From: Ianthella basta
Taxonomy: Eukaryota; Porifera; Demospongiae; Verongiida; Ianthellidae
Length of the DNA stretch: 64,000 nt
NCBI GenBank assembly: GCA_964019415.1
Contig: OZ025885.1
Location: 3,125,351-3,189,350, forward strand
Reading direction: 5' to 3'
Position 1 is the stretch's first letter, and every line of letters begins with the position of its first letter. The translations under genes were made by a program, and so were the position numbers. Positions 18,073-58,475 of the stretch are shown here, one piece after another. The notes under the pieces were generated by a model that saw nothing but the letters and a program-made list of their open reading frames with translations, was not told the DNA's origin and did no database searches.

Positions 18073-18185
18073 GACCGTATGTAGCGTGTAAGATTATGCC
18101 ACGTGCAAATAGTATTCATTGAGTGGGTTGATGACGTACGCAGCAGCAGGCGCCAAATTTTGTGCTGGACTCGAATACGTACAAC
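18073..18185. promoter_or_regulatory. Bidirectional promoter, EFG1 / CEP97
   Basis: Only 113 bp lie between the two start codons, so the core promoters must be shared or overlapping. A CRE-like half-site TGACGTAC is at 18132-18139. I see no clear TATA box. Confidence 0.75.
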
Positions 18186-19748: not shown

Positions 19749-19812
<64 letters not shown>

Positions 19813-21789: not shown

Positions 21790-21833
<44 letters not shown>

Positions 21834-21842
21834 ACGCACACA

Positions 21843-21894
<52 letters not shown>

Positions 21895-27620: not shown

Positions 27621-30600
27621 CTAGGTCATCTTGTCATCGGTGAGCCACGGCCGAAAGGGAGCCCTGGGAGAAGAGGCGGAGCTTGGGCTTTTGTATCCGG
27701 AGGCAGGGCTACTAGGAGTAGGGGATTCCACCTTGGTGGCAGCACTGGTTGGCATGGCAACGGGGATAGAAGTCACACCTAGGGCAGGGTGGAATGCAAT
27801 GGGAGTCATGGTAGACACTGGAATGTGGAAAGGCGGCATGGGGGCAGCGGTAGTGGGGGCAGTGAAGGACATAAACTTCTGTGTCATCATGTAGTCCTTG
27901 TTGAGTGGTGGGGCCATCTGAGGGGGAACGAAACCAGGGAGAGGCTGAGCCGGGAAGAGGGCATTAACAGTGGCCTGTGGCTTGTGAGTGCTGGCAGCAA
28001 TGGCTGCATTGATGGCCAGTTCCCTCTGGGCAAGGTAGTTCTCCAAGTGGTTAAGGACACGGAGGCGAAGAGGATCCTTCACATCCATTCCCTCTACGCT
28101 GACCATGTAGCGCGCCATCTCTGCCACTGCCTCCCTGAAGCCCATAAGGCGGTAGTCAAGGAACGCCCTCGTGTTTCCATAGGGTGTACAAGTGTCAGCT
28201 GCACAGGAGAGCAGAAAGAGATATATAATTATAGTATACATAACAACATATAAAATAGGGTGTGACGAAGGAAGTAGGGTGGGGACGGGGGAGGAAATTG
28301 GTAGGCAGCAGGTGTGCATACCATGGTGCATTCATTGAGTTCCTTATCAAAGTCGTTACACCTGTGAAATGCCCCTGCACCATAAGGTCCATACGCAAGT
28401 ACGTGACACAGGCACATGTTTCACGCTGATAGAATTACACTGGAGCACAATCCCACTAACCAAGCACACTGCATTGCTGGCAGGGTTCTACTTACCCCTA
28501 ATCAAAGGGCAGGTGTAAGCAACCCAGGCAACACACCGCATTGCTGGCATGGTTCTACTTATGCCCTAATCAAAGGGCAGGCGCATGCAACCCAGGCGAC
28601 CCATGATACACCCCCACTGGTAGAGATAACACAGCGTGGTTACCACAGACAATGTCTGCACAAAGAAGTGGCCAGAATCTCCTGCCCCAGTAAGCATTCC
28701 AGTAAGCCCTAGAACAGTATGATAGTCATTTATAGATTTTCCTGCATTTGTTGATGGTGGTTGTGGTGGAGCATGCTCTGGCCATGCACACACACTGCTA
28801 ACTTACCACGAGGGTCGCGGGCCTGGTGCAGGTGTTTCAGGTGATCAACAGTCATTTGAAGAATTTCAGCCTTTTCCAGTTTTGCTGAGCCCTGCACACA
28901 TTTACAAAGCATTCACTCTTCATTACACAGTCTGACAAGCAAGCGTAAACACAAAGCAATCGAGCATGTGCAGCAATCACGCTCGGGTAGTCACCTGCTT
29001 CTCAAAGGCTGCCGGAACAAGCCGTTTCAGCTCAGCCAAGCAGTTGTTAATTCTATCCCTCCTCCTCTTTTCAATTATCTGTGTGGGCACAATGGGGGAG
29101 GCTGGTCAATAGAAGAAGCCATTACACCTTACTCAGCATTGCTAGGCACCCCTAGTAAAGTGATACTGCTGACTTCGGTTTATCACACAGGACTTGGGAA
29201 TGCACACTCTACACCAGTGGGGATTCTTCACAGCTCAAAGCCAAGTAATGTTTGTCAGTTTCTGTCCCACTATCACAAGACACAGTATCCAGATCATGTG
29301 ATGCATGTATACCAGACTAAGGGGCGGGCAAATGGCACCCACACATGTGCAACCTCGTACATACGATATACAACATCAGATACCAACATTCAACCAGACT
29401 TGTTCAAATACATAGATTTGTGTATCTGGGGTACCCAGTGAACACAGCAGCACACCACAGGACTATATTGTAGCTAGGGCCTGCTTGCAGGGCTGAACAA
29501 GTGCTGGGTTGCAGTGGAGTCAGGCATGATAACAACATACATTAGTGAGATGAGTCAGCAGACACAAGCTGCCTTGGCGTCTGACATGGTCAGCTTAAAT
29601 TGTGCTCACACATACAACACACATATTGCATGCACAATGGAGGTAGTGTAATAGAGCCAAGTCCTGCTCGTACTACGCCCCAGCAAAATTGCATGTTCCT
29701 GCTACAGTACCAGAGGTTACACTCTGCTACTATAATATGGCTGGACTTTGAAGTAAATCCACTATAATGTATAGGAAGAACGATTGTGGTTTATCCATCA
29801 TAGCCTGAGGTGTATATGCTCATTTCCATTCAATAAAGCTGACCTAGTTTTGTATAGCGTCACTTACATGCAATATTTCCTGCATCTCTGCAAATACATC
29901 GAACATGGAAATGGTGGTTTGACTAATGGCTACAGTTTGCACACTAGGTGGGCCTGTACTTGTAATCACTTATTAGTGATCATGAGCAGTCAGTCCAGAC
30001 ATGTTTAGAGCAGGTGTGAGCAAACTATGCGCAAACAGCATACCTACAGAAATGTTATGACATTCATTGCATTTTGTTTCAGGTGTAAAACAGACACACC
30101 CTCTCCAAACAGCTCTAGTTACACACTTCCAGAAGCACCTCTGACTTGGGAGGTCAACACTCACCCTACCACTCATCTATGCATGCGCAGAGTCACCCTA
30201 TGCAGCCAGGGCATGTGTCACCTCCACCACAAGCATTGTTTCCCACCACAAGCCCAACCCTGAAATAAGATTCATAGCCTTACAAGACCATGAATACGCT
30301 TAACTTGTTGACTGCCAGCAGGTGCATTATTCTAGCCCCACCCTTCTTCAAGAACACCTGTATAATCTCACCAGTCTGGAGCGGCACACCACACATATAT
30401 CAGACCACACTGTAATCACAGACAAAGCACACACATCCCCACACTTGTGTGTTACCAAATGTTTCATGTAAACTACAGTGAATGGGCAGGGAGTGAGCTT
30501 GGGGAGCAGCTGCAAGGCATCTGGATAGTCTGTGGTTTATGTGCACACAGACAGCACAATTACTGCATATTAGCAAGAGTGCTCTTGATATATATATCAG

Positions 30601-30643
30601 TCATTGGCACATTCTGTGAGGTAGGGTATGTGTGTGTGTGTGT

Positions 30644-30730
<87 letters not shown>

Positions 30731-31297
30731 CCTATGCCTAAACCATTAACACTCATTGGTTTATTGTACTCTGTGCACCCCTAGATATAAAGCATGCATG
30801 AATCTTGTCTTCTGCACACACGGCTCCCCCTCTCCCTCCAAGCACACACTCCTAACAAAGCTGTCACTGCATCAACTCGGCATAATCACTCCCGCTTCAA
30901 ACGAGGTGCTACCGTGCCAACTACTGGGCAGGCCCCATAATGTCGCGAATGCTAACCGCGGGGGAACACGCTACACAGTGGAAAACACTCTATAATGACA
31001 AATCGCTAATACATGCACATTCAATACGCGGTGCGCTGCACAGACTCACCCCGCGTCGCTTCTTCCTCGAGGACACCTGGGCCGCGTCGGGGCTGTACCG
31101 GGGAAACAGAGAACGCCGTTAATCTTGTCATACAGAACAAGCTATGTATATAAGCATGTATGCAGCGAAACGCCGCTGAGGGCATTGTGAGAGCGCATAG
31201 CAACGTTATGATGCGCAGCGTACCTGGAACATTCCGCAGAATCGTAATCCTCGCCCTCGCTGTCACTGTCCAGGTGATCGGAGTGGAGACGCTTCAT
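27621..31297 (-). CDS. HEY: HEY-type bHLH-Orange transcriptional repressor
   Basis: Hairy/E(spl)-related repressor, a usual Notch target, nuclear. Exons on the minus strand: 31297-31224, 31092-31050, 29078-28995, 28891-28807, 28198-27621; phases fit and give 287 residues. The start [16 protein letters not shown] resembles vertebrate HEY (MKR...SDSE). The bHLH spans about residues 36-95: [17 protein letters not shown] with Gly where HES proteins carry Pro, then [15 protein letters not shown] and [19 protein letters not shown]. The Orange domain is about 105-150 ([17 protein letters not shown]). The C-terminus has FRPW (277-280) in place of HES WRPW or HEY YRPW, followed by seven residues as in HEY. 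It is divergent from HDDC2 with 196 bp between start codons. Confidence 0.95.
28462..28604. repeat. ~70-bp tandem duplication in HEY intron 4
   Basis: Two copies share GCATTGCTGGCA, GGTTCTACTTA and CCTAATCAAAGGGCAGG, ending in GCAACCCAGG. Confidence 0.85.
30627..30730. repeat. (GT)n microsatellite in HEY intron 2
   Basis: About 100 bp of nearly pure GT. The rest of this ~1.97 kb intron (29079-31049) shows no supported exon. Confidence 0.95.
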
Positions 31298-31493
31298 GAC
31301 GTTCGGACGCTTGCAATGTGCAGTATAAGAAAGCAGAAGAGTTTAGGAGGAGGAGAAGAAACTGCTTAGACTGTGCGTTAGTGAAACAGAAGGCAGGGAC
31401 CGATTTGACGGCAGGAAAGAAGCCTTTTATACTAGGCTATACCGGCAGCTTGCGGTGACGTCATTGTATTCGAAAGATAAACTCGGAGAGAAA
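31298..31493. promoter_or_regulatory. Bidirectional promoter, HEY / HDDC2
   Basis: 196 bp separate the start codons. It holds a perfect CRE palindrome TGACGTCA at 31456-31463, close to HDDC2. I saw no obvious paired Su(H) sites (TGGGAA/TTCCCA) in this short stretch, so Notch input, if any, may lie elsewhere. Confidence 0.75.
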
Positions 31494-34400
31494 ATGGCCG
31501 CATCTAGCTCTTGCACCGCAGGTGGAGTAGCTACGGGTGGACCAAAGATATTCGGTTTCTTTCAGTTGTGCGGACGATTAAAGGTTAGCTAGGCTAGCAT
31601 GGTAAATTTGATCGATTCAGTACCACTCGAAGCCCTGAACGTCACGTTTACCCCTGAACACAGTGCAAGCACTCTAGACCCCTGTAGCTATTCATTCGCT
31701 CACTCTTCGTGGTGCACCTACTAGCACTCACTCTCTACCATACTTGCCTACGCCATCATTCTTAGTAGGTGCCCATGCGATTCAGGGAACTGGGAACCCA
31801 TCCAGGTGATACTGGTGTTGATCCTGTTGTTCTTCTTGGTGTTTGTATGATACGGCTCCTTATCAGCTGCCGAGTGTCTACGCACATACACGCACGTGCA
31901 ATAGCCTATATTTGTCTATGGTGTAGATTAGTGGGTGTGGGTGCGATAACACTCTTTAGTTGCGAATAACGTACATGCAAATACATACATGTATGATAGT
32001 GTTGGTGTATGTGCACATGCTGTGTTCTTGTGTACAGCTACATGTTTACAAACTGTGCTCTAATGTGTGTCACCCACCACCTCATCCCTCCCCTCCTCTG
32101 TTCATGTGCCTATGTTATAATGGCATAGTTTACTCTTCTACTTCTCTCATCCTCTCTGCTCCAATGCAGCACCTCCTTCGAACTGGTTGGGTGCGTAAAG
32201 GTGTCAAGGAGCCTGAGGATGTGGCAGGACACATGTACAGAATGGCCCTTATGGCGTTTCTCTTCACTCCAAGCTGCCGTACATCTGGGCAGCCAAGTGT
32301 AGATCGTGAAAGGTGTGAGTGGGTGTGTGTGGGTGACACACACACACATACACTGTTAACCTAATTGTGTCTTGAAAGAGATGGAGAGCATTTGACTCAC
32401 TTTGCCTTTGGGTGTGTCTATTGAAACCATTTGAATGGGCTGATGCTTCAGTTGCGTAAAGCAGTACAACTTCCATACAATTTGTTGCTTGTCTTGCCGC
32501 ACAGTAAATTGTTGAGCTGCACACACACTCCACACACGTCAGCATGTGTGTGTGCATGCAGTTGTATTGTGCTTCAGTAATTCTACTCTGAACCACTAGA
32601 GCTCTGTCAGCTATTTGACAAGCGCAGCTATAGCTTCTTACTTTCTTTTGAAGCTCATTCCTAAAGTGAACATTGTAACATGATCAATAGCATAGTAGGC
32701 ACAGTGTCAGCTGTACACTCATGCTTATGGTATGTTGTCAGAGTGTAGAGTGGAGTGGTATAGAGTGGAGTGATGTGGTGTGGAGTGGAGTGGAGTGGAT
32801 TGGAGTGGTGTGGAATAGAGTGGTGTGGAGTGGAGTGGTGTAGAGTGGAGTGGTGTGGTGTAGAGTGGAGTAGAGTGGTGTAGAGTGGAGTGGTGTGGAG
32901 TAGTGTGGTGTGCTGTGGTGTGGAGTGATGTAGAGTGGAGTGGAGTGGAGTAGAGTGGTGTAGAGTGGTGTGGAGTGCTGTGGTGTGGAGTGGTGTGCTG
33001 TGGTGTGGAGTGGTGTGCTGTGGTGTGGAGTGGTGTGGTGTGGTGTGGAGTGGAGTGGTGTAGAGTGGTGTAGAGTGGAGTGGTGTAGAGTGGTGTAGAG
33101 TGGAGTGGAGTGGTGTGCTGTGGAGTGGTGTGGTGTGGTGTGGAGTGGAGTGGTGTAGAGTAGTGTAGAGTGGAGTGGTGTAGAGTGGTGTAGAGTGGAG
33201 TGGAGTGGTGTGCTGTGGTGTGGAGTGGTGTGCTGTGGTGTGGAGTAGAGTGGTGTAGAGTGGTGTGGAGTGCTGTGGTGTGCTGTGGTGTGGAGTGGAG
33301 TGGTGTAGAGTGGAGTGGAGTGGAGTGGTGTGGAGTGGTGTGGTGTGGAGTGCTGTGGTGTGGAGTGGAGTGGTGTAGCATTGAGAGCTGTGGAATGTGT
33401 TGTAGTGTGGTGTGGAGTGGTGAGTAGTGTATGAGTTACGTGTTGTTTGTATCCAAGTGTGCTTGGACACTTCATGGGGGCTACTGCAAATGTGAGAGCA
33501 CCAGTTACTGAGCCTGTCAAAGAACTTGTCCCCAATTGCCATTTGTACATTACTGTACATTCTTCCAGTGACCAGCTAACCAGCTGTCATGTCCTCTCTT
33601 GTCTGTTGAGATTTAACTACTGTAAGGCTAACTGAGTAGTGTGTTGTAACAATGTTGAACTGCATACTTATGTACGTATACACAGGTCAGTCATCTGACA
33701 GCATGTAGCGTAGTATGAAAGATACTTTGATTGAGTAGTCATAAGAGAAAAGCAAGAGTACATTAAGGTCCTGCTAACATAAATAATTCCATTACATGTA
33801 TGTCTAAGTTTTCAGGAGACAGAAACTAAAGTACAAGAACAGAACGTACAATTAATATAGTACGTATAATATACTGCCAAATATAATATAGTTCATTAAG
33901 ACAGCAAATTATAAGCTATAATAAACTAGCTATGTCAATAAAATTAAATTGAAATTTATTGATGGTGCACTTGTGCATGTGTGCCCACATGAAAAGGTAT
34001 CACTGTAAATAAATTAAACTTTGATTGTTGGAAAGATGTGTACAATTAACTTTGTATGGTGTGCATGCATACATATGGCTGAGAGCTGACACTGGGCCGC
34101 GACCCATGGGGCATGGTATGTAGTAGGAGTTGAGGATGGTTAGTCATCCGTTGGCAATACACCTCTCCCTTCCCACACTATACATGTACTTTAATTCTCT
34201 CTATCTCACATCGTCCGTCTCTTCCTAGCCTTTCTGTCCACTCTCACACACCCTCCCAATTCTCCAGCCCTTCCTCCCCTTGCTCAACCCTCCCATGCAC
34301 TACACACCGCCTCATCCCTCCATTGCTCACTCCTACTCCATTCCCTTGATCTCTCCTCAAGATGCATCAAGATGGTGTTAGTTCACGACTTAGCTGAATG

Positions 34401-37400
34401 TATTGTTGGAGATATTACACCTTCAGATGGAATTGACAAAGAGAAGAAACACCAAATGGAACTGGTGAGTTATGGCCCTATTTTGTTCTTGATGTACTAC
34501 CGGATTGTTAACATTCTGCAGTTAAATGGCTTGGAAATGTGGACACACTAACAGACACAGTCTTTGTGTTTGTAGATAGTCTGCACAAGTCGTGGATACG
34601 TATAGGGCTTGGGTTGTAGCATGGCAGAAAAGTTTTCAGTGGCAGCACCCCTCTGACAACGAACAGCCCCACTGAACAAATAACAAACTGATTTACTATA
34701 AGTGTGTGTGTCTATCTGTGTTGTTTGTACTATGAATGTATTGTGGATGCCTGGAAGAGTAGCCTTCAGGCTAAAGGTTCCCCACATTAAATAAGATCAA
34801 TTATTATTGTATAGTGTGTGGAACACCACCTGATCATCGGTGTGGTTCAAGAGGTTGCTGTTGTATCCCTACACACACTGTAGCGGCTCAGAGTGGTACT
34901 TGTGTATATTGTTGATGGCGTATACAACAAAGAGAACAGGTCATGCCCAAAGCCCTGTTGGACTCAATGCTAATTATGTTGAAGTAAGTGATAATCCCGT
35001 TGAAGCCAGGTAATCCTGTTGAAGTCGTTCCAATCCCCCAAACGCTACATAGTTCCTGAGATTCTCCTTGCTTGCCAAGTTCTGCTCCCTTCTTACATAT
35101 ATGGATCAAGCTCAAATATTTTGTATGTATGTATGTAAACATGTACACAAAGGTTGACTGTGTTGTGGCAGCATGCAGCACCCCTACATCCAGCCCACTC
35201 CGCTGCATGCTGCCTGCTCTTTCAAATTCAAACCACTGCACTGCTGACTGTCTACGCCATCTCTATAGCTATCTTCCTTCACTTATGTCTGTCTGCCTGT
35301 GTGCACTATAGGTAGGTATGTTGGTTGGTTAGTATAGTTATCAACCGAAACGTACAACAGGATTGAAGCTTTGCTAATGTTTCGACATGATGCTCGAGTC
35401 TTCCTCAGGGCTAATGTAAACAGGGGTAACTTGGTGAACTACCGATGCTCATGCCTAAGCCAGCTGATCGAGAGGCCCTTACTTCACTGTAGACAATCAT
35501 CAGTTAAAGGAGATATCGTTAGACAGTACGCTATGTTGTCCTTAGCCACAACCTGTCTCAGATCTTGAGGTTCTGTGTTTTAACCAGCAGGTCTGGGAAG
35601 TGGCTGAGATTGGATACTTTAATATTTAATGCAGTAGTTTATGTCAGTCTGTATATAACTTGAGAGCAGTCATCAGAGGGTATTTCTAGGGTAGAAAGGC
35701 AACACTCTGGTCACAGACCATCCTTTCCACTCCACGAGTGTTAGGCTGTGATAGTGCATTCCTGTGCCTTCACTGTTGAGATCACAGAGGATCAGGTAAG
35801 GACTTTATCAGTCCTCTACAGGTACTCTCCCCTTTGAAGTGGACACAGCCCCTGGGAAAGTGTGGCAGCCTGCCAGATGCGCTAAAATGCCATTTACAAT
35901 GAGAAGTGTGGGTGCAGTCATAGACTACATATGGTGTAGTACCTCATCTACATCTTATTTTCCACATTGCGTATGATTGCACCATATTAAGTCAATAGGA
36001 GATTAGAACCTGCGCAGGATACTGCAGCAGCATTAGTGGCGGCTGTCTGATGAGCTATTATGCTAGCGTGTGTACGTATCTACCGTGGCACTTGTCATCA
36101 CTGTTTTGTATATAGATCTACTTGCATGTATTGAAGTGATATGTAAATTGTGTCCTGTTTGGGTGGACTACAAGAGTGAAATCACCATCCAGAAGCGTGA
36201 TGGCAGCAGGCCAGCCACCGATACACTGTTATGTGTGTGTACATAGTTGTATGTGGCAAACTGTTTTGGCTGGTGACTTCCAGAGGAGCATTTTACACAT
36301 ACCTGCAGTGTCTGTTAACCATCGTCAGTGATCATGCGATATATACGCTGTCCGCACCCACGGATTTGGTCATGTGTACGTACATGTGGGTGTTCCTTGG
36401 AGGGTGGTCAGTTTGTAGTCCTGCAGGTGCTCAGTATATCACAAGCTGTTTTTATCGGCGGCTCGTTTGTAGATTGCGCATGTCACGTACGTTGACAGCT
36501 GCATGTGATTGAGTTGTGTGATGTAACCTGTGGAAACCAGTGCACATCTGTGGAGCCAAGAACTAACCAGAGCACACATTGTTTACTGTGCCATCTATCT
36601 GAAAACAAAAACTGAGTGTGTTATCTGAAATGGAATACTAGTGGTTATAACCACCAGCATCCTTTGTTCTGTTAGGGGTTAGGTTACCTTAGGGCAGGTA
36701 GGAGGACGGGCCACCAATATCAAAGTGTGCACCTTTCTATACAATCTGCTTGTGACAGCCTGTGATTACCTCTGATTGTCGCCACTTTCCCCTCCTCCAA
36801 CTGTTTGCAGCCGGAGGAGGAAATATTCTGGCCAGGCCAGAGGGATATGTCACAGGAGGAAGCTATTAGTGGGAGTCTTACATCAGTTGGCTTCTCTGGC
36901 CACACTACATACCAAGCTCCATGTTGAATTGTGTTGTACACTGTGAATTCCAAATCTGTATTAATGTGATGTGCTGAGGCTTATGCTGTGGCAGTGAACA
37001 GACATGAGTGCATGATTAGTGGGCAGAGACATAACAACACTGTAGGAAATGAAGTGGTTTTTAAGACCTTTTGATTGCAAAGGTCCTCTTTAGCTACAAG
37101 TCTGTGTGCCTATTTGTGTTGGTGTTTTTTGAAGAGCAGAGTGCCACTACTGCCAGATCTTTGTACTGTTCTGTGCCATTAGCAAAAGATTGAGTTGTTG
37201 TGTAGTTGGCCACACTAATAACACTTCTGCTGTAAGTGCAGCTTTTGACTAGAGCTGCACTTACAATACAACGCAATACAGCTGACTAGAGCTGCACTTA
37301 CAATACAACACAATACAGCTTCATTGTGTCAGTGGCAATAAAGTGAGATGTGTCGCAGTATCCCAAAAATTGCCCTAAGTGTAGTGGTCACTCTCACTCT

Positions 37401-38227
37401 CAGCACAATTGCACACCAAACTGTTGATCATCTGCGATCATGAGGAACACTACTTTGTCAGTCAATGATCTCCACTTCCACCTTGCTTAATCTAGTTGTT
37501 CGCATCAAAGACTAACTTTATTGCCATCAAAGGCATATCATGGGTGTGCCAGGCTGCTCAAGGCTCTCCAAGAAATTTAGATTAGCTTGTAGTTTGGCAA
37601 ATCTAATTGTCAAAACTGATATTGACAAATTAACTAAAGAGCTACTGCACAAATGAACGCCCACCGTTTGCCAACTGTGTCACTGTGTCACATGACTGGT
37701 CTGTGGGCTCCACTCCAAGAAGGAAGTAGCCACTGGTAGCCTCATTGCAGTACTTGTGTGGGAATCTTATTGTTGAGTCTACATGGTAATTGTGTCACTA
37801 AGGAACAGTCAATTGTTCACTCTGGGTGAAGTGGGGAGTGGGGCGGGGATAGGGATGCATACCAGTGGTCACCAGTCATTCTTTAAGATGTACGTATTGT
37901 GTGTCCCTGCCTGGAATCACTTACTTGTTGCCTAGCTGCCAGCATCTTTCATCTTCCGGCACCCCTACCCTGTCCTTCTGTCCTCGTGTTTAGCCCTCCC
38001 ATGTTCTTCAGCCCATCATCATGTAAGGAGTAAGGAGTGGGTATACCTCCTTATTGCTACAGTGAGTGCGTTGTATTCTACATACAGTATGACTGCTCTT
38101 ATAGAGTGCTTTAGAGTGTTCACATGCAGCAGCAATGCTTCAATCAAAGTGTTTGTAAGTGACTGTTTGTGTTATGCACTTAGTAACTAATTTTCCTGTT
38201 CCCCAGACATGCACCCTCTCCACAACC

Positions 38228-38269
<42 letters not shown>

Positions 38270-44200: not shown

Positions 44201-46850
44201 AGAGTGTGGTAGCACTCTCTGTGTAGTGAGAGTGTGGTAGCACTCTCTGTGTAGTGAGAGTGTGGCAGCACTCTCTATGTAGTGAGAGTGTGGTAGCACT
44301 CTCTGTGTAGTGAGAGTGTGGTAGCCCTCTCTATGTATTGAGAGTGTGGTAGCACTCTCTGTGTAGTGAGAGTGTGGTAGCACTCTCTATGTAGTGAGAG
44401 TGTGGTAGCACTCTCTGTGTAGTGAGAGTGTGGTAGCCCTCTCTATGTAGTGAGAGTGTGGCAGAACTCTCTGTGTAGTGAGAGTGTGGTAGCCCTCTCT
44501 ATGTAGTGAGAGTGTGGCAGCACTCTCTGTGTAGTGAGTGTGTGGTAGCCCTCTCTATGTAGTGAGAGTGTGGCAGCACTCTCTGTGTAGTGAGAGTGTG
44601 GTAGCACTCTCTATGTAGTGAGAGTGTGGTAGCACTCTCTGTGTAGTGAGAGTGTGGTAGCCCTCTCTATGTAGTGAGAGTGTGGTAGCACTCTCTGTGT
44701 AGTGAGAGTGTAGTAGCACTCTCTGTGTAGTGAGAGTGTGGTAGAACTCTCTGTAGTGAGAGTGTGGTAGCACTCTGTGTAGTGAGAGTGTGGTAGCACT
44801 CTCTATGTAGTGAGAGTGTGGTAGCCCTCTCTATGTAGTGAGAGTGTGGTAGCACTCTCTGTGTAGTGAGAGTGTGGTAGAACTCTCTATGTAGTGAGAG
44901 TATGGTAGTACTCTCTGTGTAGTGAGAGTGTGGTAGCACTCTGTGTAGTGAGAGTGTGATAGCACTCTCTGTGTAGTGAGAGCGTGGTAGTACTCTCTGT
45001 GTAGTGAGAGTGTGGTAGCCCTCTCTGTGTAGTGAGAGTGTGGCAGCACTCTCTGTGTAGTGAGAGTGTGGTAGCACTCTCTATGTAGTGAGAGTGTGGT
45101 AGCACTCTCTGTGTAGTGAGAGTGTGGTAGCACTCTCTGTGTAGTGAGAGTGTGGCAGCACTCTCTATGTAGTGAGAGTGTGGCAGCACTCTCTGTGTAG
45201 TGAGAGTGTGGCAGCACTCTCTGTGTAGTGAGAGTGTGGCAGCCCTCTCTGTGTAGTGAGAGTGTGGTAGCACTCTCTGTGTAGTAAGAGTGTGGTAGCA
45301 CTCTCTATGTAGTGAGAGTGTGGTAGCCCTCTCTATGTAGTGAGAGTGTGGCAGCCCTCTCTGTGTAGTGAGAGTGTGGTAGCATTCTCTATGTAGTGAG
45401 AGTGTGGTAGCACTCTCTGTGTAGTGAGAGTGTGGTAGCACTCTCTGTGTAGTGAGAGTGTGGCAGCCCTCTCTGTGTAGTAAGAGTGTGGTAGCACTCT
45501 CTATGTAGTGAGAGTGTGGTAGCACTCTCTGTGTAGTGAGAGTGTGGCAGCACTCTCTGTGTAGTGAGAGTGTGGCAGCACTCTCTGTGTAGTGAGAGTG
45601 TGGTAGCAATCTCTATGTAGTGAGAGTGTGGCAGCACTCTCTATGTAGTGAGAGTGTGGTAGCACTCTCTGTGTAGTGAGAGTGTGGTAGCCCTCTCTAT
45701 GTAGTGAGAGTGTGGTAGCACTCTCTGTGTAGTGAGAGTGTGGTAGCACTCTCTGTGTAGTGAGAGTGTGGCAGCACTCTCTATGTAGTGAGAGTGTGGT
45801 AGCACTCTCTGTGTAGTGAGAGTGTGGTAGCACTCTCTATGTAGTGAGAGTGTGGTAGCACTCTCTATGTAGTGAGAGTGTGGCAACACTCTCTATGTAG
45901 TGAGAGTGTGGTAGCACTCTCTATGTAGTGATGGTACAAGATGTCTGGTATTCCTTGTGTTTATGTTGGTATGGGGTCAAAATCCCAGCAATTCTTGAAA
46001 ATAGCATTGCTTCTACTTTGACTGTGTTAATGCAGTTAATAGTGCCATATAATATTTCAGTGTATGTGTCTTAGCAGTATGTTATCATGGCATTGTTGCA
46101 CTGAATGTTCTATCTGTTATATACAGTGACAGCTACATAGTATTACTGTAAATAATATTGTGATTTATGGACACTACTGATCTTTTGCAAGACATGATTT
46201 CGTGGCTCATTACTTTGCACTACCCACAAGACTTTGATGTACTGTATATCTGCTGATCACTAACTGATAATGTCTACTCTTTCCTATGGGAGCTGTGTAG
46301 AATCACTACTTGTGAGTTTTATACGTACCTTGTTAACCCTTTACTATAACTTAACAAGTAAAAACAAGTTAAAAAAAACTTGTTTGTGCTTGAAATACTT
46401 TCTCCCTTCAGTCACTGCTGTGTAATGAACATTAGCAAACTGCCAACAAACTTCATAGGCAATAGCTTGATCCGTCTTTGGATGATTAAGCACACCGGGA
46501 AGCACTTGTCAATTCAGTGCAATGTTTCACTCATCACAGGCTTCATCAGGCATGCAAAACTGACGAAACAACCGAATTGAACATGAATGCACAATCTAAC
46601 ACACAATCAGGCAATTGTACACAAATATTCCACACACAGCCTAGATCACTTCTTCCCTCTAATTTTATATTCTGACATCATTGCACAATAGTGGAAACAA
46701 AGGAAAGGGTCTTGGCTACACAAGACTAACACCCAGTTTGAATACTATCATGAAGTTGCCATAACGCACAACATACAAATACCACATACATACAAACACA
46801 AACCCTTTGACCAAGACACATGCATTCACATCCACACCAGCGCACACACT

Positions 46851-46931
<81 letters not shown>

Positions 46932-47425
46932 GCACACACACTTGTACTTGTAACTTGTAACTTGTAATATCACTGCCAAGAATTGGCTACGTGGGGTAAG
47001 CCAGCAGGTGGCAACAAGACTGGTGGCACTGTTGGCTGCGAAGACACTAGCCTTATCACTCCAGTCACATGCCCCCCTTGGTGTAATAGGGGTACTCATC
47101 TATGGGCTTGCAAGACCCATGAGATGAGAGGGATGGGGTATGGCCTTGAGTGATGGCATCAGTGTATCCGCCCTGGACTCCTGGCCATAGACTTCCCCAC
47201 CTACGCTTGGTAATGTCTAGGTGACTAGCATAAGTTGCACTACCAGTGCTGAACACTGGAAAGTGCACTAGCACCTAACAGAGAATTACACAAGTTCCTT
47301 ACTTTCCACCAGTGGTTTGTGGTTCACAAGTACGTATATGACTAGACTTGTAACCAAAGCAAAAACCAAGTTTTCAACTTTCTGAATGCCAGACCCGTTG
47401 GCTGCAGATCTGTCAAACACTGGGA

Positions 47426-47457
<32 letters not shown>

Positions 47458-50400
47458 TTTAACGGGTGATTATGTTACTTTTTTATTTATCGGCAACATA
47501 TCTTGTTCAATAATGTGTTTAACAAGCTGTACAAGCTGAATGAACACAATAGTTCAGCTTCATAGTGCATAGAGCTTCTGCTCCAACAACCAGCAATCTG
47601 TAAGGGAAAAGAAAGAGATATTGGCCTAAAGTTGTGTATGGGCAGAAGCCAGCATTGCTTACCTAAGGCATGTCCCAACGGAATGCTAGTACGGTACGGT
47701 GCATGGAAAAGGTAACGCTAACCAAAAACTGGCGATAATTTTTCACCTTTTAATCAGTAATGAGCGGCAAACGGTGAAATGTTAACTGTTAGCATGTGAC
47801 AGTTAGCCGTTTAATGTGGCAGCATCCTAATATACATATCACAGTATATTCCAGGATTTCAGTGATAGCAAACACAAGGGAGGATGGTCTTATCACTTTG
47901 AACTGCAAACAGTGGGAAAACAGCAGATGGACTCCAAGAAGACTGTTTGGACTACTGTTTCCAAGAACAAAGTGTAGAACTCCATCGCGTCTGGCAGGAA
48001 GTGTTGGGTAGTCCCATACCTGGACTACCACCTGTCAGTCAGCCATTAAGATGTGACGTCATTTACTGTGTAAACTCAAATTTTCGCAGGAATGTATTTT
48101 TGCAAATTTTGCACGGCAGCCAGCATTTGTGAAATATATTCTTGCAAATATTTTGTGCTCCATATTCCCAGTATTTATATACATTGCATATGATATACCA
48201 ATATAAATAACTTGGTGACCATTCTCAAAAATAAAATTGCGAATTACCTTTCCAAGCGGCGATTCACAAAATGTTCGCCACACAAAAGTTAGAGTTTACA
48301 TGGTATTGAATACTAGATACAATGGAGGCTACAAAGTTGTCTGACCTCGGGACAGGAGGCTGGTCAGTGGATGCTGCAACCTCACACCTGAAGTATTGGC
48401 CATTGCTACATATGTATATACGTATGTGCGAAACTGTTAACCGTTAAACAGTAACCACTACCGGTTAACGCATCATGATGATCAGTGCTTGACTGTCAAA
48501 AATTCACAGATAAATTTTCGATTTTCCGAAAGCTGTGAGTCGGGAAACAGAATTTTCATAACCTTTTCTATGCACCATAGTGTAGCTAACATGAGCTTGC
48601 AGTGACACTTACAGTTGTCATTCTAGTGGTTAACCTGTGCATGCAAGTTATGTTCTCTCTCCCCCTACAGGATGCAATGCACCACATCTGCTCCCTTGTC
48701 CCACAAGAGGTACTTGCTGTATGCACTGCATGACTTACCACCTACTGTACACGCAGTATACAGACAGGGTTCATGGTAAAATGCAGAGTTCCAGAAATGC
48801 ATTTGGAGTTGGAATGGAACAATTGACCACTTGCGTAGGATAGTGATCTGTTTTGAGCCTTTCCCCTATACGAATGTTCTGTATGTAGGTTTTCCTGAGG
48901 GCTTGGGCATCTTTTTGGATATTGAGGGATTTTGTGTATACTGGTATGCATAAGATATGTTAATAGTAGTCAGTTAGAACTGAAATGCGGTGTCTTGTGA
49001 GCTGTGCCCTTATATGGATGCACTCTCCAGTCTGATTCACTTGCTGCACATGGGTCAGACTGGAGAGAGAGACTTCAGAGAGGACTCAGTCACTCTCGTT
49101 AGTGACTTCGACAGTGATGGCTGTGACACCAACGTTGGTAACTGAGACTCTGATTGTGGCCTTGGAACTTACGGGGGCAGCATATTCACATTACTTTTAC
49201 TAATTGTCTCCTCCACAGACTCAAGGTCATATTCAGGGTTATCGATCGTCATCTTCACCGCTATGCAGGCTAGCTCTTATAATGCCCTCCCCAGTTATCA
49301 ACAAGTCAACCTCTCTTTTGTGCTACCATTTACACTACCATTAAAACTTTTTTGAGAATGGTTGTGTGACTTGTGTCACAAATACAAGGGATAGGCAATC
49401 GTAGGTCGAGCCATGGCTTTTGAGGTATTGCAAGGTTGTATACCTATTCCATGGTGGTCCCATTAATACCACTTGAGGGCTGAATACCTGAAGTCATATT
49501 GAATTTCTTGTAGCACTCGAGGAAAGCCATGGGTACCCTAGCATGTAGTGCATAATATGAGGAAGATTTGTAGGAGCAGGAAGAGCTTCGTGAATGCACC
49601 AAAGATGAGGTCAACTCTACTGAGGCCAAAGGCACATTTTCCACCCGTGGACAGCCCACTTCTTTGATTGCTGTATGTATCTTTGGTTGCATGTTGGTCT
49701 GTAGGCAGACAGCCTCCTCTTTGTTGGGCTCAATGAGGAAGGGCAGACCCTCCACATGTTATTAATGTATACTGTGTGCACTCTAAAGGTGTGTCACACC
49801 CAAATAATTTCTCCTTTAAAACTGTTGGAGCTGGAATTTAGAAGACAGGAAGATGACAAACATTCACATAAACATGGGAGTGGAGCTGAGCTGTAGAGTG
49901 CTTTCATTACAGCTATTTCTCTTTGAATATACCAATTTGGACTGACTGTGCGAGCAGCAGTTTGTGGCTACCATGTGAACAAAGACTGCAGATTCCTGCA
50001 ATTACGTAGTGATGAATTCAGCTGTCAGCAAGTGCCTTACGATTAAGAAGACCTGTGTCAGCAGCATCAGTTCAGTGTGTGAATGCACTACTTGCAAGTT
50101 TGATACGTATGTGACATAACTGTTATCCCAAAGAGCACAGTTTCAGTAACATGGTGACAAGTAGGCATGAGATAATCACTGACCAGCTTCGTTGGGTTTG
50201 GTGGACCTTCCTCAGTGTCGACCAAAGCAATAGTTATTGGGTAGTCTTCCTTAACTGGGTATGCACTGCATCTCTCGACCACCTTATCTCAGATATGATT
50301 TTATACAAAGACTTAACACAACAGCACCCCGAGGAAACACTCAAACTATCTGTGTCTCCGTGATGCTCTCACTGCAACTTCCATGCTTCTACATACCTTT

Positions 50401-53400
50401 GGCCCATCCACTGGGCTATGTATTGACAACCACTTTGTTATCACTGGTCTTAATGACCACAGCCATTGCAACTGGTGGTAGGTGGTAGTATTGCCAGCAC
50501 ATAGGACAACCTGGAGAAAGAAGAGTGCCACCTCACTGAGGTCCCGAAGCAGAACAGTTACTCTGGTGCCTTCATCCGCTCCTCATCTCTACTCTTTAGG
50601 TGGGATGTGGAGACCATCCAGGTACTGCCATTGGAGGAGGGAAGCAGGCTTCCACTGGTAATCCTCCCTTACAGAGAAGGAGTCAGTGAGGACAGCAGAC
50701 AGATCTGTAGGAAAGTTTGGCATGAAGGTTGTCTACAGATCCAGATGATCTCTTCGTGCTAACCAAGGTGAAGGATACCCTGGCCACAGAAAGCAGTTCA
50801 AAGTTGTGTACCAGATCCCCTGCAGGCTCACGTTGGGGAGACAGTGAGGAAACTTGACACTAGATTGAAGGAGCACTACGTAGGATGCGTGTCAGAAGGG
50901 GACACTGGAGAAGTCAGCACTTGCAGAACATGCATGGGAGCACCACCTCCCTATCAAATGGTGGAGACCACAGTATTTGACCAGGCCAGAAGCCTCAATG
51001 AGCTGTTGCTTAAGGAGGCAATCCACATCTGGTTGCTGTAGCCCCCCCCCCCCCTCAACAGGGATAGGGGGCTGGAGCTTCCTGGATGTGGGATGGCTGC
51101 CCTGAAATGCAAAGTATGTACTATTATTATTACTATTATTTTTATTTTACGCCTGTTTGTGTTGATGGTGGTATAGTTCAGAAGCTACGTATGTCTGTGT
51201 TCTACTTAACCAGTCACCTTCACCTATGTACATAGGTCCTAGCAATGATGAATCTGTTCTGCAATGTCTCTCTACTCTTCTCTTGTCTGCGCTTTGACCC
51301 ACAGTGCCTCGAGATCAGCTGATGTCTTAAACTGGGCATTTGTACTTGGATCTGTGTTCAGAAGTACTGAAAGTGTATATAGTTCTTGGTCTCCCATGCC
51401 TGCCTGAGCTGGCTTTGTTGCAGTAGGTCATCATAGCCTTGTTGGCAGGAGCCGAGACAGGCAGTCTCTCTATGTGGCCATATAGTTGCCTGCAGGCACA
51501 TCAGGTGATTGCTGAATGGGGCTCAGCATGGCAATGGTTGTAAGGGGCATTGTTGGAGATGTGATCAGCATAGAAGATAACAATCAAAAGTGAAGTATGA
51601 TGCTACTGGCTTCACTATTGGTGATGCCCCAAGTACGTACCAATGTTGTGTGCGAGGGTTGAAGAGACATAAGCCTGGTAATGTCTGATCTGCAGTCTAC
51701 TCTCGCTAACCTTCTGTCTCCAAAACCAGAGCATCATTTTACAAAGGCAATTGCGGCCTGCAGCTTTCACCCACAGACATCCTGCTGATCACCTAGTAGG
51801 GGACGTACTGACTTCACATTTTGCCATGCCTCAACCCCTAGCAAAGAATGTAGGGCTAACTAAAGAAGACCTGCAACTTCTGGTGACCCCCTTTCATAAC
51901 CTGACTCCTAGCTACTGCAAATGATGAGACACATCCATGGCTGTAGTGCCAGACACCATATAATGACAATAAATTATCACCACTGTTGCGCACCGTGGTT
52001 CAGTTGCGTGCTAGCGCAACAGATACCGAATTTTGGGGAATTTCCTGCTGGTTTCAAATCCAGTTTCAGATTCGTGCTACGGTGCACAGGACAAAAGTTA
52101 CACGCACTCCAATTACCCCCGGTAGTATTATACACACACACATATAATGATATGTGCTCCCGCTAGCTTTTCTTTTGGCAGAACAAGACCAGAGCATCTG
52201 GTCAAAATGTTGGCAAGATTACAACCCTGTTGTTTGAAGCTGGTGTTTGGAGAACTTCCCTCTATCATGCCTGAGCCAGCTGAGAAGGCCTCACTGCATT
52301 AGCGTCAACAGGTTTGCTTCAGTGTTACCACAACAGGGGGCACAAGGCAAAATGTTAATGGGGATTTTGTTTAATCTAAGGGGGATTTCTTTGCATATGA
52401 ACAACTTTACATGTCCATGTGCTGCATTAGTGGGAGATCCTACAGAGCCAACCAATTCTGCCATGTACATACGTGTGTACTGTAGTGTGTACACAAGGAG
52501 GCTTGAGTTCTCTATCAAGACTGTGCGAGGCTTTCACACTTTAGCTATTTCCACCTCATTTCAATGAATACACTTCTTGTATGGTCATTGCATTACTGTG
52601 CACACAGTTATGGACGCCTTCACTAATTTTGCAGTCAGTGAAGGACATGAGTCAACATTCTGTCTTCACTATATCTTATGCTACTACAGTGCAACCCGCC
52701 TAAGATGATCACTGTGTTAGGCAGCCACCTCTCTAAAACAGCCAGTCTCCCTGGCCTAAAATAGCACTGCAATCTACCTCTGTAGGGCAGGCACCTCTCT
52801 CAGTTGGAACTGGCCCTCAGGTGGTTGTCTTAGACAGGTATCACTGTAGACAACATTCCACACCTGGCCAGCATCGTCCCATATAGGGCAGTAATTAAAG
52901 CCAAAGCTCAAGTGTAATAAGTGTTGTTGTGTGTGAAGCTGTCTAAAGTTATTACAGTGTAATGACATTCATGGCTTTGTCCACATCCTCTGCATTATCT
53001 TAAGTGTATTCATTGCCATGTTGTTGTCCTACATGCCCTGCTTATTGCAGCTGGCCACTGGTTTGAAAGGTGAACTAGAACATGTGCAGATAGTGTCTTC
53101 ATGCATTCCTACTATATAGTCTCCTTTCTTTTGCTTTGTTCATCTTCTGTACATCACCAGTATAATTATGGCATTCTCTGTCTCTCCTCCCTCTGTAGCT
53201 ACATACCTGCCAGCTATCATCACTCATGTTCTCATGCCTCCCTCAATCTGCCCTCCTCGTCTCTCCCCTCTTTCTTTCCTCCTCTATGTATGATGCTTAT
53301 TTCTCCATCCTGCCCTCTCAACATTGTTTCACCCTCTTCTCTCTCTCCTCTCCTGTCTTTCACACTCTCCACATATGCACACACCCAAATGTGCACACAC

Positions 53401-53627
53401 CCACATGTGCACACACCCACATGTGCACACACTCACACAACACAACACATTCACTAGGTGAGTACCGAACTGATGGATCTGTGGAGGGAATATGAAGATG
53501 GCTCTACACCAGAAGCATGCTTGGTCAAGGACCTGGACAAGTTTGACATGATATTCCAAGCGTACGAGTATGAGCAAGGTCACTATGCAATTCTCAGTCA
53601 TGCACACTTGTACTTATGACAGTAACA

Positions 53628-53717
<90 letters not shown>

Positions 53718-54997
53718 ACACATATGCTATCCCTTCCATCCAATCCACACCAAACCATAGCACATTAAGCTCAAAACATGTTGTCATGCACACACACATG
53801 CGCAGGTGCTGACCATTGTGTGTGTGCATGTATGAAGTACTTTTAGCCAAACTCCAAGGATAGTACAGTGCGTATGTGCTGAGGATGAGGCTGAGGATGA
53901 GTGACTGTAAGGGAAGTTGAGTAAGTGTGCTATAACTCGATTCTTCTTTGGACAATCGAGCACACCATGAACACTTGTCAAATTCAATGCAACGGTTCAC
54001 CCATCACGGGCTTCGTCAGGCATACAAAACTGAGAATAAAAGAAAAGGTGCCCCCCCTGTGCTCATTTTCTTTTATTCTCAGTTTTGTATGCCTGACGAA
54101 GCCCGTGATGGGCGAAACGTTGCATTGAATTTGACAAGTGTTCATGATGTGCTCGATTGTCCAAAGAAGAATCAAGCTATTACCTACTCAGCATGCCTAA
54201 TAACTTCCACGAATGTGCTATAACTCGTTTGTAAACCATGGTAAAGGGACTAACCTTGTCTTCATTGCTGGTGCGCAAAGAATGAAGAAGAAGGTAGAAT
54301 GCTCTTGTATCCTCAGCAGTGCACATGCAGCTTGGCAGCCATATTAATTCTAGTGCAGTGGTAGTCTTCAGTAGCCAGCTGCTTCCTTTTGATGCCATCA
54401 TTGTATGAAATGGAGGGAAGTTGCAGCAGTCTGGGCTACCCTATACTAGTGCTGTGCTATATGTATTTGAGTGCTTCCCTATCTAGCACACACTTGATAT
54501 CATGTACGTAGCTGATGTCTGACTCTGCTGTGCCACCCACATACACGTACATATGTACACGCACACACCATATGCCCGTTGCTTTGGAGATGATGCAGTT
54601 GTACTGTGTTAGCATGCCTCGTGGAAGTGTACTGGTAGTACAGTTTAATTACTGGTTGAGTGGTCAGTGTACACACACACACCTTATGCCCGTTGCTATG
54701 GAGATGATGCAATTGTTAGCATGTCTGGTGGAAGTGTACTGATAGTACAGTTTAATTACTGGTTGAGTGGGCAGTGTTGCTGTGTGCGCTGCTACAGATG
54801 GGTTTGGTGTTTGAGCCACTTTAAAACATCAACTTTCTAAATGGCTTCCTGTTTACTCAATGCAGCTGAAAATACACCAGGCAAATTGGAAGAGTTTTTC
54901 ACTAGCACTAAAGGTGAGTATGGGAGTATGTTAGTGTGTAGTTGTTCTCTGCCTGCAGCTTCCGAACCAACACAGAACAAAACACACACACACACGC

Positions 54998-55060
<63 letters not shown>

Positions 55061-55413
55061 TGCAGGTAGAGAACACATGCACTGTACAATGCTAGCCTGT
55101 GCAAGCAGCATACTGTACAATCAAACAATGTCCAATACACAGTATTACACATGTACAGTACAGTACAAGCACACAACCACTTTCACATACACAAAGAAAG
55201 TATGTATGTATATGCTATTCATACACATACACCTATAACAGTATAGGGAGACCATTAGAGGCTCTCAGCAAGCTCAGTACATTGCCTTACTCTGCCTCAG
55301 GGCGTTTCACTGACCCTGTGGTCAAGCAATGGGTTTCAGAGTTGGAGGAGATGCGGAAGCAAAACCTTAGCATTGGAGCACACGAACCACCCACCAACAC
55401 TACCGCATCGTGA
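31494..55413 (+). CDS. HDDC2: HDDC2-type HD-domain 5'-nucleotidase, giant intron
   Basis: HD-superfamily metal phosphohydrolase; family members are 5'-deoxynucleotidases. Exons: 31494-31583, 32170-32312, 34362-34464, 53458-53578, 54866-54913, 55301-55413; the joined frame is open for 205 residues (human about 204). Metal ligands are visible: His51 (VAGHMYRM), His86-Asp87 (MVLVHDLAE, followed by ECIVGDI) and Asp139 (KDLDKFDMI). [13 protein letters not shown] and the C-terminal [11 protein letters not shown] match the family. Compared with human, about 13 residues between KKHQMEL and VSTELMDLW are missing, so a phase-0 microexon may hide in the ~19 kb intron 34465-53457. One weak candidate is GAGGCCATGAGGGATTCT near 40713. 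Divergent partner of HEY. Confidence 0.92.
32735..33425. repeat. Pentameric satellite (TGGAG/TGGTG)n
   Basis: About 690 bp of 5-bp units, mainly GTGGA, GTGTG and GTAGA mixed, with no regular higher period I could see. It lies in HDDC2 intron 2 (32313-34361). Long open frames on the minus strand (HSTPHHSTP) are an artefact of the repeat. Confidence 0.95.
34465..42352. other. HDDC2 giant intron, left part
   Basis: No confirmed gene. It holds (GT)n tracts (38231-38268, 38322-38346), a TATG/TGTG-rich stretch at 39170-39480, a poly-C tract at 41176-41198 and a 41-bp direct repeat at about 37250-37318 (AGAGCTGCACTTACAATACA). A motif like a decayed hammerhead lies at 35370-35412 (minus). Could contain cis-regulatory elements of HEY. 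Confidence 0.55.
40860..41040 (-). repeat. Dispersed AT-rich repeat, copy 3 (inverted)
   Basis: The reverse complement contains TTTTGAAAAGTCCAGG and TAGTGATTTCAGGTTTGTAT, matching the copies in VPS39 introns at 12240 and 13305. Confidence 0.7.
42353..45930. repeat. 28-bp satellite array with higher-order duplication
   Basis: About 128 tandem copies of a 28-bp unit, GTGAGAGTGTGGTAGCACTC plus TCTRTGTA. Within each unit GAGAGTG and CACTCTC are inverted around TGGTAG, so each could form a small hairpin. Common variants are C for T in GGTAGC, and CCC for CAC. Marker variants (AGCGAGAGTATGG at 43027 and 44113; GAGAGCGTGGTAGTAC at about 43895 and 44981) recur exactly 1086 bp apart, showing a recent tandem duplication of a 1086-bp block (about 42880-45046). 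The minus strand lacks stops in some phases, giving false frames ([19 protein letters not shown]). Confidence 0.97.
46475..46575 (-). repeat. Solo, decayed hammerhead-bearing repeat half
   Basis: On the minus strand: ATGC, CTGATGA (plus 46543-46549), a weakened stem II, GAAA (plus 46525-46528), CATT, GCAC. It matches the left arm of the palindrome at 53937-54178 (AAGCACACC, CACTTGTCAA, TTCAATGC). Stem II has lost pairs and stem I has three, so activity is doubtful. Confidence 0.55.
46853..46930. repeat. (CA)n microsatellite
   Basis: About 78 bp of CA in the HDDC2 intron. A shorter CA run is at 47427-47457. Confidence 0.95.
48070..48299. mobile_element. MITE (GTAAACTC...GAGTTTAC)
   Basis: Terminal inverted repeats start GTAAACTC at 48070 and end GAGTTTAC at 48299. 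Subterminal sequences are AAATTTTCGC and GCGAATTACC / GTTCGCCACACAAAAGTT. AT-rich, non-coding. A TGACGTCA (48054-48061) lies just outside its left end. Confidence 0.7.
50470..51041 (+). pseudogene. Penelope-like element relic (RT end + GIY-YIG endonuclease)
   Basis: Shifting frames read [82 protein letters not shown] and finally [19 protein letters not shown] with a stop at 51039-51041. This order (PY.GVSE linker, VVY.I.C, GET.R.L..R..EH, SA.AEHA..H, KEA.HI) is that of the linker and GIY-YIG domain of Penelope-like retroelements. At least two frameshifts, so dead. It is followed by a C run at 51043. It sits in sense orientation in the HDDC2 intron. Confidence 0.85.
51240..51720 (-). pseudogene. 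Possible LINE 3' relic
   Basis: On the minus strand a shifted reading gives [22 protein letters not shown] and [23 protein letters not shown]. This resembles the C-terminal GH..R.P...GRP....DLE...AQ.R..W pattern found after the reverse transcriptase in some LINEs. Strongly decayed. I cannot exclude chance. Confidence 0.35.
52687..52846. mobile_element. MITE, copy B (same family as 8966-9147)
   Basis: TA-flanked, CAGTGCAACCCGCCTAAGA at the left and TTAGACAGGTATCACTG at the right. It shares GTTAGGCAGCCACCTCTCTA, CAGTCTCCCTGGCC and GGAACTGGCCC with copy A. Confidence 0.8.
53629..53714. repeat. (CA)n microsatellite
   Basis: About 85 bp of CA, 50 bp downstream of the HDDC2 exon ending at 53578. 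Confidence 0.95.
53937..54178. mobile_element. ~240-bp palindrome with hammerhead cores in both arms
   Basis: The left arm (TCGATTCTTCTTTGGACAAT at 53937) is the reverse complement of the right arm ending ATTGTCCAAAGAAGAATCAA near 54174. The centre is a short G/C-rich spacer with a C run (54048-54057). The right arm holds an intact plus-strand hammerhead. The left arm holds the same motif on the minus strand with GAAA changed to GAAC. Confidence 0.85.
54089..54125 (+). ncRNA. Hammerhead ribozyme, minimal stem III
   Basis: Stem I arm ATGC (54089-54092), CTGACGA (54093-54099), spare A, stem II GCCC-GTGAT-GGGC (54101-54113), GAAA (54114-54117), CGTT, stem I arm GCAT (54122-54125). Predicted cleavage follows T54121. 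All conserved core bases are present. Stem III is limited to the few bases of AACGTT, so dimeric action would be expected. Confidence 0.75.
54982..55056. repeat. (CA)n microsatellite
   Basis: About 75 bp of CA in the last HDDC2 intron. Confidence 0.95.
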
Positions 55414-58321: not shown

Positions 58322-58475
58322 CAACGAAAGCAATATACACAATATTACTGAGTACTGTCCTTGTCACGAGTTTATTTATAACTCCTCTGAAAACGCCCAC
58401 CGCAATCAGCCGAGAGACACACACACACACACACACACACATGTGCACACACTGGCTGGTGACGTCACAAACAAA
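58322..58475. promoter_or_regulatory. Bidirectional promoter, coiled-coil gene / PREP
   Basis: 154 bp between start codons. It contains a short (CA)n run (58418-58442) and a perfect CRE palindrome TGACGTCA at 58460-58467, only 8 bp before the PREP ATG, so probably in its 5' UTR or at its start site. Confidence 0.7.

Follow-up and report, generated by a model that had tools for sequence, protein, structure and literature searches.

A gene of the HEY subfamily, coding for a basic helix-loop-helix (bHLH)-Orange protein, and the HDDC2 gene lie head to head in the genome of the demosponge Ianthella basta, on the minus and the plus strand, respectively; both are intact, and their start codons (beginning at positions 31297 and 31494) are separated by 196 bp. 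Adjacent both here and in a published list of human genes, and harbored by the same contig in 14 of the 21 species having both genes among the matches listed, HEY and HDDC2 represent an ancient conserved microsyntenic pair, which was probably already linked before the split between sponges and bilaterians. They were analyzed in a stretch of 64,000 nucleotides (hereafter the window, meaning this whole stretch), which corresponds to positions 3125351–3189350 of contig C18 (6.89 Mb, i.e., 3.3% of the genome) in an assembly of 209 Mb in 96 contigs. An earlier note on this DNA had described a HEY-type gene divergent from HDDC2 at this distance, which the gene models and the homology data bear out, and had proposed that the linkage dates back to early animal history; the human gene order, the shared contigs, and the single detected copy of each gene support this proposal.

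Identity and copy number of the two genes

The HEY gene consists of five coding exons (Table 1), interrupted by introns of 131, 1971, 103, and 608 bp with phases 2-0-0-1, and codes for a protein with an HLH domain (Pfam, 3.5e-17, residues 34–89) and a Hairy_orange domain (1.1e-12, residues 114–152). Among the PDB sequences, it matches the HEY1 Orange domain and the HES1 bHLH. The top organism-labelled match among those listed is HEY of Halichondria panicea (46% over 100%), and relatives with 88–89% identical C-terminal pieces are also present in the same list. The C-terminal tetrapeptide is FRPW in the window protein and in all ten close homologs checked, one of them from Halichondria; the four homologs checked from bilaterians end in YRPW. 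Both the Halichondria match and the FRPW endings agree with a demosponge host. Moreover, the alignment with HES1, whose counterpart of this stretch is SSKPIMEKRRRARIN, revealed a glycine in the basic region at the position of the HES proline; the replacement of this proline by glycine marks HEY proteins. An organization into five coding exons having phases 2-0-0-1 has been published for HEY1/HEY2/HEYL, for DEC, and for the HEY gene of Amphimedon queenslandica (XP_003387453), for which the FRPW variant of the YRPW-type tetrapeptide has been reported as well (PMC3396596); the Amphimedon gene thus agrees with that of the window in exon number, phases, and tail. The window gene possesses the four characters of the HEY subfamily considered here, i.e., the bHLH and Orange domains, the exon phases, the FRPW tail, and the basic-region glycine.

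The predicted HDDC2 protein matches the sequence of the human HDDC2 structure 4dmb over residues 2–211 (E 5.5e-57) and possesses the HD_3 domain; at the sequence level, this nearly full-length match together with the domain identifies it as HDDC2.

The whole 209-Mb genome was probed with domain profiles, exon by exon, a procedure that very divergent copies could escape. The Hairy_orange profile retrieved a single match, corresponding to the window HEY; HD_3 retrieved three, all of them exons of the window HDDC2; and HLH retrieved 19, one of which is an exon of the window HEY. Each of the two genes is, therefore, the sole detected member of its family, and, within the reach of the search, no closer HEY relative lies at another locus. 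The one Hairy_orange match also implies that no HES or Helt with a recognizable Orange domain was detected genome-wide by the profile search; the homoscleromorph Oscarella contrasts with Ianthella in this respect (PMC4172395).

Linkage of HEY and HDDC2 in human and in other animals

The published order of human genes on 6q22 is NKAIN2, STL, RNF217, TPD52L1, HDDC2, LOC643623, HEY2, NCOA7, and TRMT11, with LOC643623 repeated in the noncoding column of the same table (PMC4657880); in this list, HDDC2 and HEY2 are consecutive protein-coding genes. Human HEY2 is located on the plus strand at 126,070,726 (PMC3396596), and a copy number variant (CNV) including HDDC2 ends at 125,619,539 (PMC5704537), that is, ~451 kb short of HEY2. 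If HDDC2 does not extend much past the CNV and the genome builds agree, the human genes, which are the same and adjacent in the list, are roughly 450 kb apart, compared to 196 bp in the sponge. We take human HDDC2 to lie on the minus strand, and the human pair would, therefore, be divergent. As for the earlier claim that the human genes are divergent neighbors on 6q22, the adjacency and the plus strand of HEY2 find support in the published list and position, respectively.

The distribution of the pair in other animals was tallied by eye from the rows naming both the organism and the contig size, within the best 120 of 1,727 HEY matches and the best 120 of 935 and of 7,082 HDDC2 matches, a sample that leans toward slowly evolving proteins; the contig was taken to be the same when the longest contigs holding each protein were identical in bp. 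The 14 species with a shared contig, one of them another demosponge and the others from several bilaterian phyla, are Halichondria, Mactra, Ostrea, Ylistrum, Babylonia, Littorina, Lymnaea, Haliotis (whose row derives from clusters bearing two species names), Lineus, Amphiura, Glandiceps, Ptychodera, Ischnura, and Trichomycterus (with HEY2). The linkage is tight in two molluscs, the contigs of Ylistrum and Lymnaea being 642,726 and 1,036,765 bp long. One Trichonephila HEY row was dropped before the count, since the species name is incomplete and the scaffold differs from that of T. clavipes HDDC2; its inclusion would give 14 out of 22.

Some of these data weigh against an old, selectively maintained neighborhood. 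The other 12 shared contigs measure 8.6–148 Mb and indicate linkage at the level of the chromosome only. In seven species, the genes lie on different contigs: in Bradybaena, Uloborus, and Tachypleus, these are very long, and in Lottia, Ridgeia, Trichonephila inaurata, and Larinioides, they are shorter scaffolds that permit no conclusion. All four chelicerates tallied belong to the latter seven, two of them with very long contigs, and their separation may represent a lineage-specific break of the linkage. Since the genes do not share a contig in seven species out of 21, any constraint on the pair is not absolute.

The earlier note had reasoned that the pair would be fortuitous if HEY and HDDC2 were unlinked in most other animals; in our sample, they are linked in two-thirds of the species. 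A chance pairing in Ianthella, to which the window by itself would lend room by displaying the adjacency in one genome only, was thus set aside as very improbable on the basis of the human gene list and of the contig tally.

The literature searches returned nothing on the conservation of this pair, although some papers gave the human gene order, and no paper uniting HDDC2, HEY2, and synteny was found; the pair list of Irimia et al. (2012) was beyond the reach of the search. HDDC2 together with synteny led only to unrelated virology, and HEY2 together with microsynteny to a review on heart enhancers containing the two terms in separate passages.

HEY–HDDC2 belongs to a known kind of gene association, the ancient conserved microsyntenic pairs, with which it shares a developmental transcription factor placed beside an unrelated housekeeping gene and linked in both sponge and vertebrate. 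According to Gaiti et al. (2017, PMC5429095), 80 microsyntenic units had been reported in Amphimedon by Irimia et al. (2012), 60 of which were confirmed, 43 having enhancer-like marks in adults; the main text of Gaiti et al. does not name a HEY gene. A similar organization is that of the Amphimedon pair Islet–Scaper, likewise formed by a regulator and a bystander with long introns; in this case, the marks have been mapped in the introns of Scaper (PMC5429095), whereas the size of the Ianthella HDDC2 introns is partly due to repeats.

Chromosomal context of the pair

One alternative to selection is that HEY and HDDC2 belong to a rarely broken ancestral linkage group, and that in both sponge and human they have stayed adjacent as a remnant of the ancestral order. 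To this explanation, the placement of other genes is relevant. Six families flanking the human HEY genes or located on human 6q21-q22 were searched for in the Ianthella genome; the choice was not blind, and two of the families, TPD52L1 and NCOA7, belong to the published list (PMC4657880). TRMT11 was left out of the six, its sole UPF0020 match, on contig C15, looking by eye like a THUMP-domain methyltransferase.

Three of the six families are represented on C18. The sole genome match of TPD52 is found there, although it is weak (28.3 bits, Pfam cut-off 25), as are all eight genome matches of MLLE (PABPC-type). The third is a TLD gene, which matches NCOA7 best (93 bits versus 44 for skywalker) and which we provisionally call NCOA7/OXR1-type on the basis of these scores. 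The probability that at least three of six families fall on this contig by chance is ~0.0016. These families presumably flank the human HEY paralogs more closely than ASF1, HSF, and AMD1 do. Two facts count against the association: ASF1, HSF, and AMD1, i.e., the other half of the families, are located on C19, C14, and C23, respectively, and for a second TLD gene, located on C16 and searched as a shorter query, the best matches are likewise with structures of the NCOA7/OXR type, at 85 bits versus 69 for skywalker. This gene remains a competitor for the NCOA7/OXR1 place; if it holds it, two families out of six are on C18, and the calculated probability partly lapses. The eight MLLE matches cluster on the same strand within 134 kb (C18:5611631-5745192), perhaps representing a tandem expansion of PABPC-like genes.

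The co-location of these families on C18 supports the existence of an old linkage group, and HEY–HDDC2 can be regarded as a linkage marker tying the sponge contig to the human regions carrying HEY paralogs. The same finding, therefore, also feeds the explanation by inertia of the chromosome, together with the 12 longer shared contigs mentioned above and with the macrosynteny documented between sponges, cnidarians, and chordates (PMC10719294). Conserved chromosome linkage may, in fact, explain part of the pattern. Nevertheless, the two genes are adjacent in the sponge and in the human list, and in the two molluscs mentioned above the scaffolds that they share measure 0.64 and 1.04 Mb. Gene order within chromosomes is usually scrambled over such time spans, which also speaks against inertia; taken as a whole, we judge it possible, though on the unlikely side.

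The interval between the start codons

The 196-bp interval is rich in CpG, with an observed/expected ratio of 1.16 versus 0.32 for the window, and contains a TATAAAA motif (a consensus match only, on the strand of HEY) and TGACGTCA, a palindrome resembling the cAMP response element (CRE) and one of six in the window. Bidirectional promoter pairs are defined by divergent start sites within 1 kb and by CpG richness; the distance considered here is that from ATG to ATG. The interval, therefore, shows the anatomy of a putative bidirectional promoter, as far as its composition and motifs can indicate.

A shared CpG-rich promoter, whose separation would damage both genes, might itself hold the pair together in sponges, and all the features listed above would fit such a constraint. 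In human, however, roughly 450 kb separate HEY2 from HDDC2; the persistence of the pair across animals is, therefore, not due to a common core promoter, and the constraint may act in sponges only. On the whole, we regard this explanation as improbable.

Possible distal regulation of HEY and the introns of HDDC2

A different kind of constraint would be regulatory. In this case, the DNA around both promoters would form a joint regulatory domain having HEY as its main client, and rearrangements parting HEY from HDDC2 would be selected against. That the sponge locus is a copy of the ancestral animal pair, kept for this reason, is a reading on which we are evenly balanced. The common factor across animals would be the distal regulation of HEY from the HDDC2 side. 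In vertebrates, the interval would have expanded to hundreds of kb, with distal Hey2 enhancers upstream of Hey2; in the sponge, a distal HEY enhancer, if there is any on the HDDC2 side, would be placed within or beyond HDDC2. Indeed, since the interval measures only 196 bp, a distal element on that side must lie in the introns of HDDC2 or beyond. Intergenic space is also scant behind HEY, whose stop codon and that of the next open reading frame (ORF) are 1,140 bp apart.

Some vertebrate data agree with distal regulation from the HDDC2 side. A heart enhancer of mouse Hey2 is located 211 kb upstream of the transcription start site, and an enhancer of zebrafish hey2 24 kb upstream (PMC7987942, table); in human, the region upstream of HEY2 faces HDDC2, and these enhancers would lie on the HDDC2 side as well, provided that the layout in mouse and zebrafish is like that in human. 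These enhancers fit a shared regulatory block, without placing enhancers in the introns of HDDC2. Furthermore, rs2747716, a human single nucleotide polymorphism associated with endometrial cancer, is located at 125,687,226 (PMC6085317), between the end of the CNV including HDDC2 and HEY2 (PMC5704537); it is listed as a GTEx expression quantitative trait locus for RP11-624M8.1, HEY2, and, under other genes, HDDC2 (PMC7476276, Table 2). Both HDDC2 and HEY2 are listed among the Brugada risk loci (PMC9602309, table). These listings are associations and do not prove a shared element.

The introns of HDDC2 measure 586, 2049, 14,206, 4,748, 1,287, and 387 bp. The earlier note had described a single intron of ~19 kb, the remaining ones being 0.4–2 kb long, and neither statement holds. 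It overlooked exon 4, which fills a stretch aligning without gaps to human HDDC2 and divides the region into introns of 14.2 and 4.7 kb, so that the single large intron was rejected; intron 4 alone exceeds the range given for the others. Distal HEY enhancers of the sponge, if present, would most plausibly reside in introns 3 and 4, outside the repeats. This is the least certain step of the proposed mechanism: the location of HEY enhancers in the introns of HDDC2, which the earlier note had suggested, is a plausible hypothesis that can be tested.

In Amphimedon, enhancer-bearing introns have been described as longer than average (PMC5429095). The two large introns of Ianthella might simply have been inflated by repeats and hold no HEY enhancer, to which we assign slightly less than an even chance; this alternative concerns the intron step only and is compatible with the other explanations. 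At least 5,615 of the 18,954 bp of introns 3 and 4 (29.6%) consist of tandem or dispersed repeats, a lower bound, since scoring was limited to the top 40 candidates of each search and positions 45932–48670 were outside the search for dispersed copies. The largest contribution is given by a 28-bp satellite of ~3.6 kb, the ends of whose unit are self-complementary, to which dispersed elements with copies on many contigs are added; the element of intron 4 gave only a sub-threshold match with the domain profiles and was left without a name. In addition, introns 3 and 4 show no enrichment in RBPJ/Su(H)-type sites, of which four were seen against 4.4 expected by length; these sites are, therefore, of no help to a Notch-input enhancer, and a search for a cluster of Notch sites in the introns found none. 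No structured RNA gene was found in the window at Rfam gathering thresholds. On the other hand, ~13.3 kb of the two introns lie outside the detected repeats, the repeat figure being a minimum.

Two further repeats were observed in the neighboring introns. A G-rich satellite with a unit of 10–25 bp occupies positions 32748–33376 of intron 2, and a fold-back element, recognized by eye, positions 53955–54160 of intron 5. The latter is possibly a non-autonomous mobile element, because one of its arms resembles the stretch at ~46480–46600 of intron 3.

The most far-reaching form of the regulatory explanation is that of a block predating the split between sponges and bilaterians, in which distal HEY elements would lie on the HDDC2 side, namely in HDDC2 introns where sponge genomes are compact and in the widened interval in vertebrates. 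Several points tell against the regulatory explanation as a whole. A sea-anemone study proposed short-range cis-regulation as ancestral in non-bilaterians and reported two-gene microsyntenies without difference between clades (PMC10719294); associations of two genes are, moreover, common. In human, rs2747716 is labelled intronic (PMC7476276, Table 1). Lastly, CTCF has been reported to be lacking in non-bilaterians, which qualifies the reading as an ancient block. We consider such an ancient block rather unlikely. If the constraint on the pair is regulatory, HEY–HDDC2 would represent a compact test case for the age of distal gene regulation, in which the same Notch effector and the same neighbor can be compared between vertebrates, with enhancers mapped upstream of Hey2, and a sponge with ~13 kb of non-repeat intron DNA.

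Table 1. Coordinates of HEY, HDDC2, and associated features in the window.
Feature	Position	Strand	Remarks
HEY coding sequence	27621–31297	-	five exons, 287 aa
HEY coding exons	31224–31297, 31050–31092, 28995–29078, 28807–28891, 27621–28198	-	lengths 74/43/84/85/578 bp
Most of HEY bHLH domain	28807–29078	-	exons covering HLH residues 34–89
HEY last exon	27621–28198	-	Orange domain (Hairy_orange residues 114–152) and FRPW tail
Interval between ATGs	31298–31493		196 bp
TATAAAA motif	31425–31431	-	HEY strand
TGACGTCA	31456–31463		CRE-like palindrome
HDDC2 coding sequence	31494–55413	+	seven exons, 218 aa
HDDC2 coding exons	31494–31583, 32170–32312, 34362–34464, 48671–48709, 53458–53578, 54866–54913, 55301–55413	+
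HDDC2 exon 4	48671–48709	+	39 bp, 13 codons, AG/GT borders
HDDC2 intron 3	34465–48670	+	14,206 bp, including ≥4,772 bp of repeats
HDDC2 intron 4	48710–53457	+	4,748 bp, including ≥843 bp of repeats
Dispersed ~190-bp repeat	34619–34812		HDDC2 intron 3, ~90% identical copies on many contigs
28-bp satellite	42358–45931		HDDC2 intron 3, ~128 copies
Dispersed repeat	50487–51105		HDDC2 intron 4, ~77% identical copies on many contigs

Other features of the window

On the HEY side, the neighbors are an Efg1 gene (17434–18093, minus strand) and a long ORF with IQ and fn3 domains (18252–26480, plus strand), preceded by pieces that look LRR-like by eye. On the HDDC2 side, a coiled-coil ORF (57059–58363, minus strand) lies beside a prolyl endopeptidase gene, of which the window contains the beginning (from 58245, plus strand) and the human counterpart of which we take to be located on 6q21. 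Farther from the pair, the ORF at 14331–14780 (minus strand) resembles, on visual inspection, the tail of a reverse transcriptase of the long interspersed nuclear element type, Pfam giving no match, and a 48-bp G-rich minisatellite (11497–11893) is found directly behind a coding-looking open frame.

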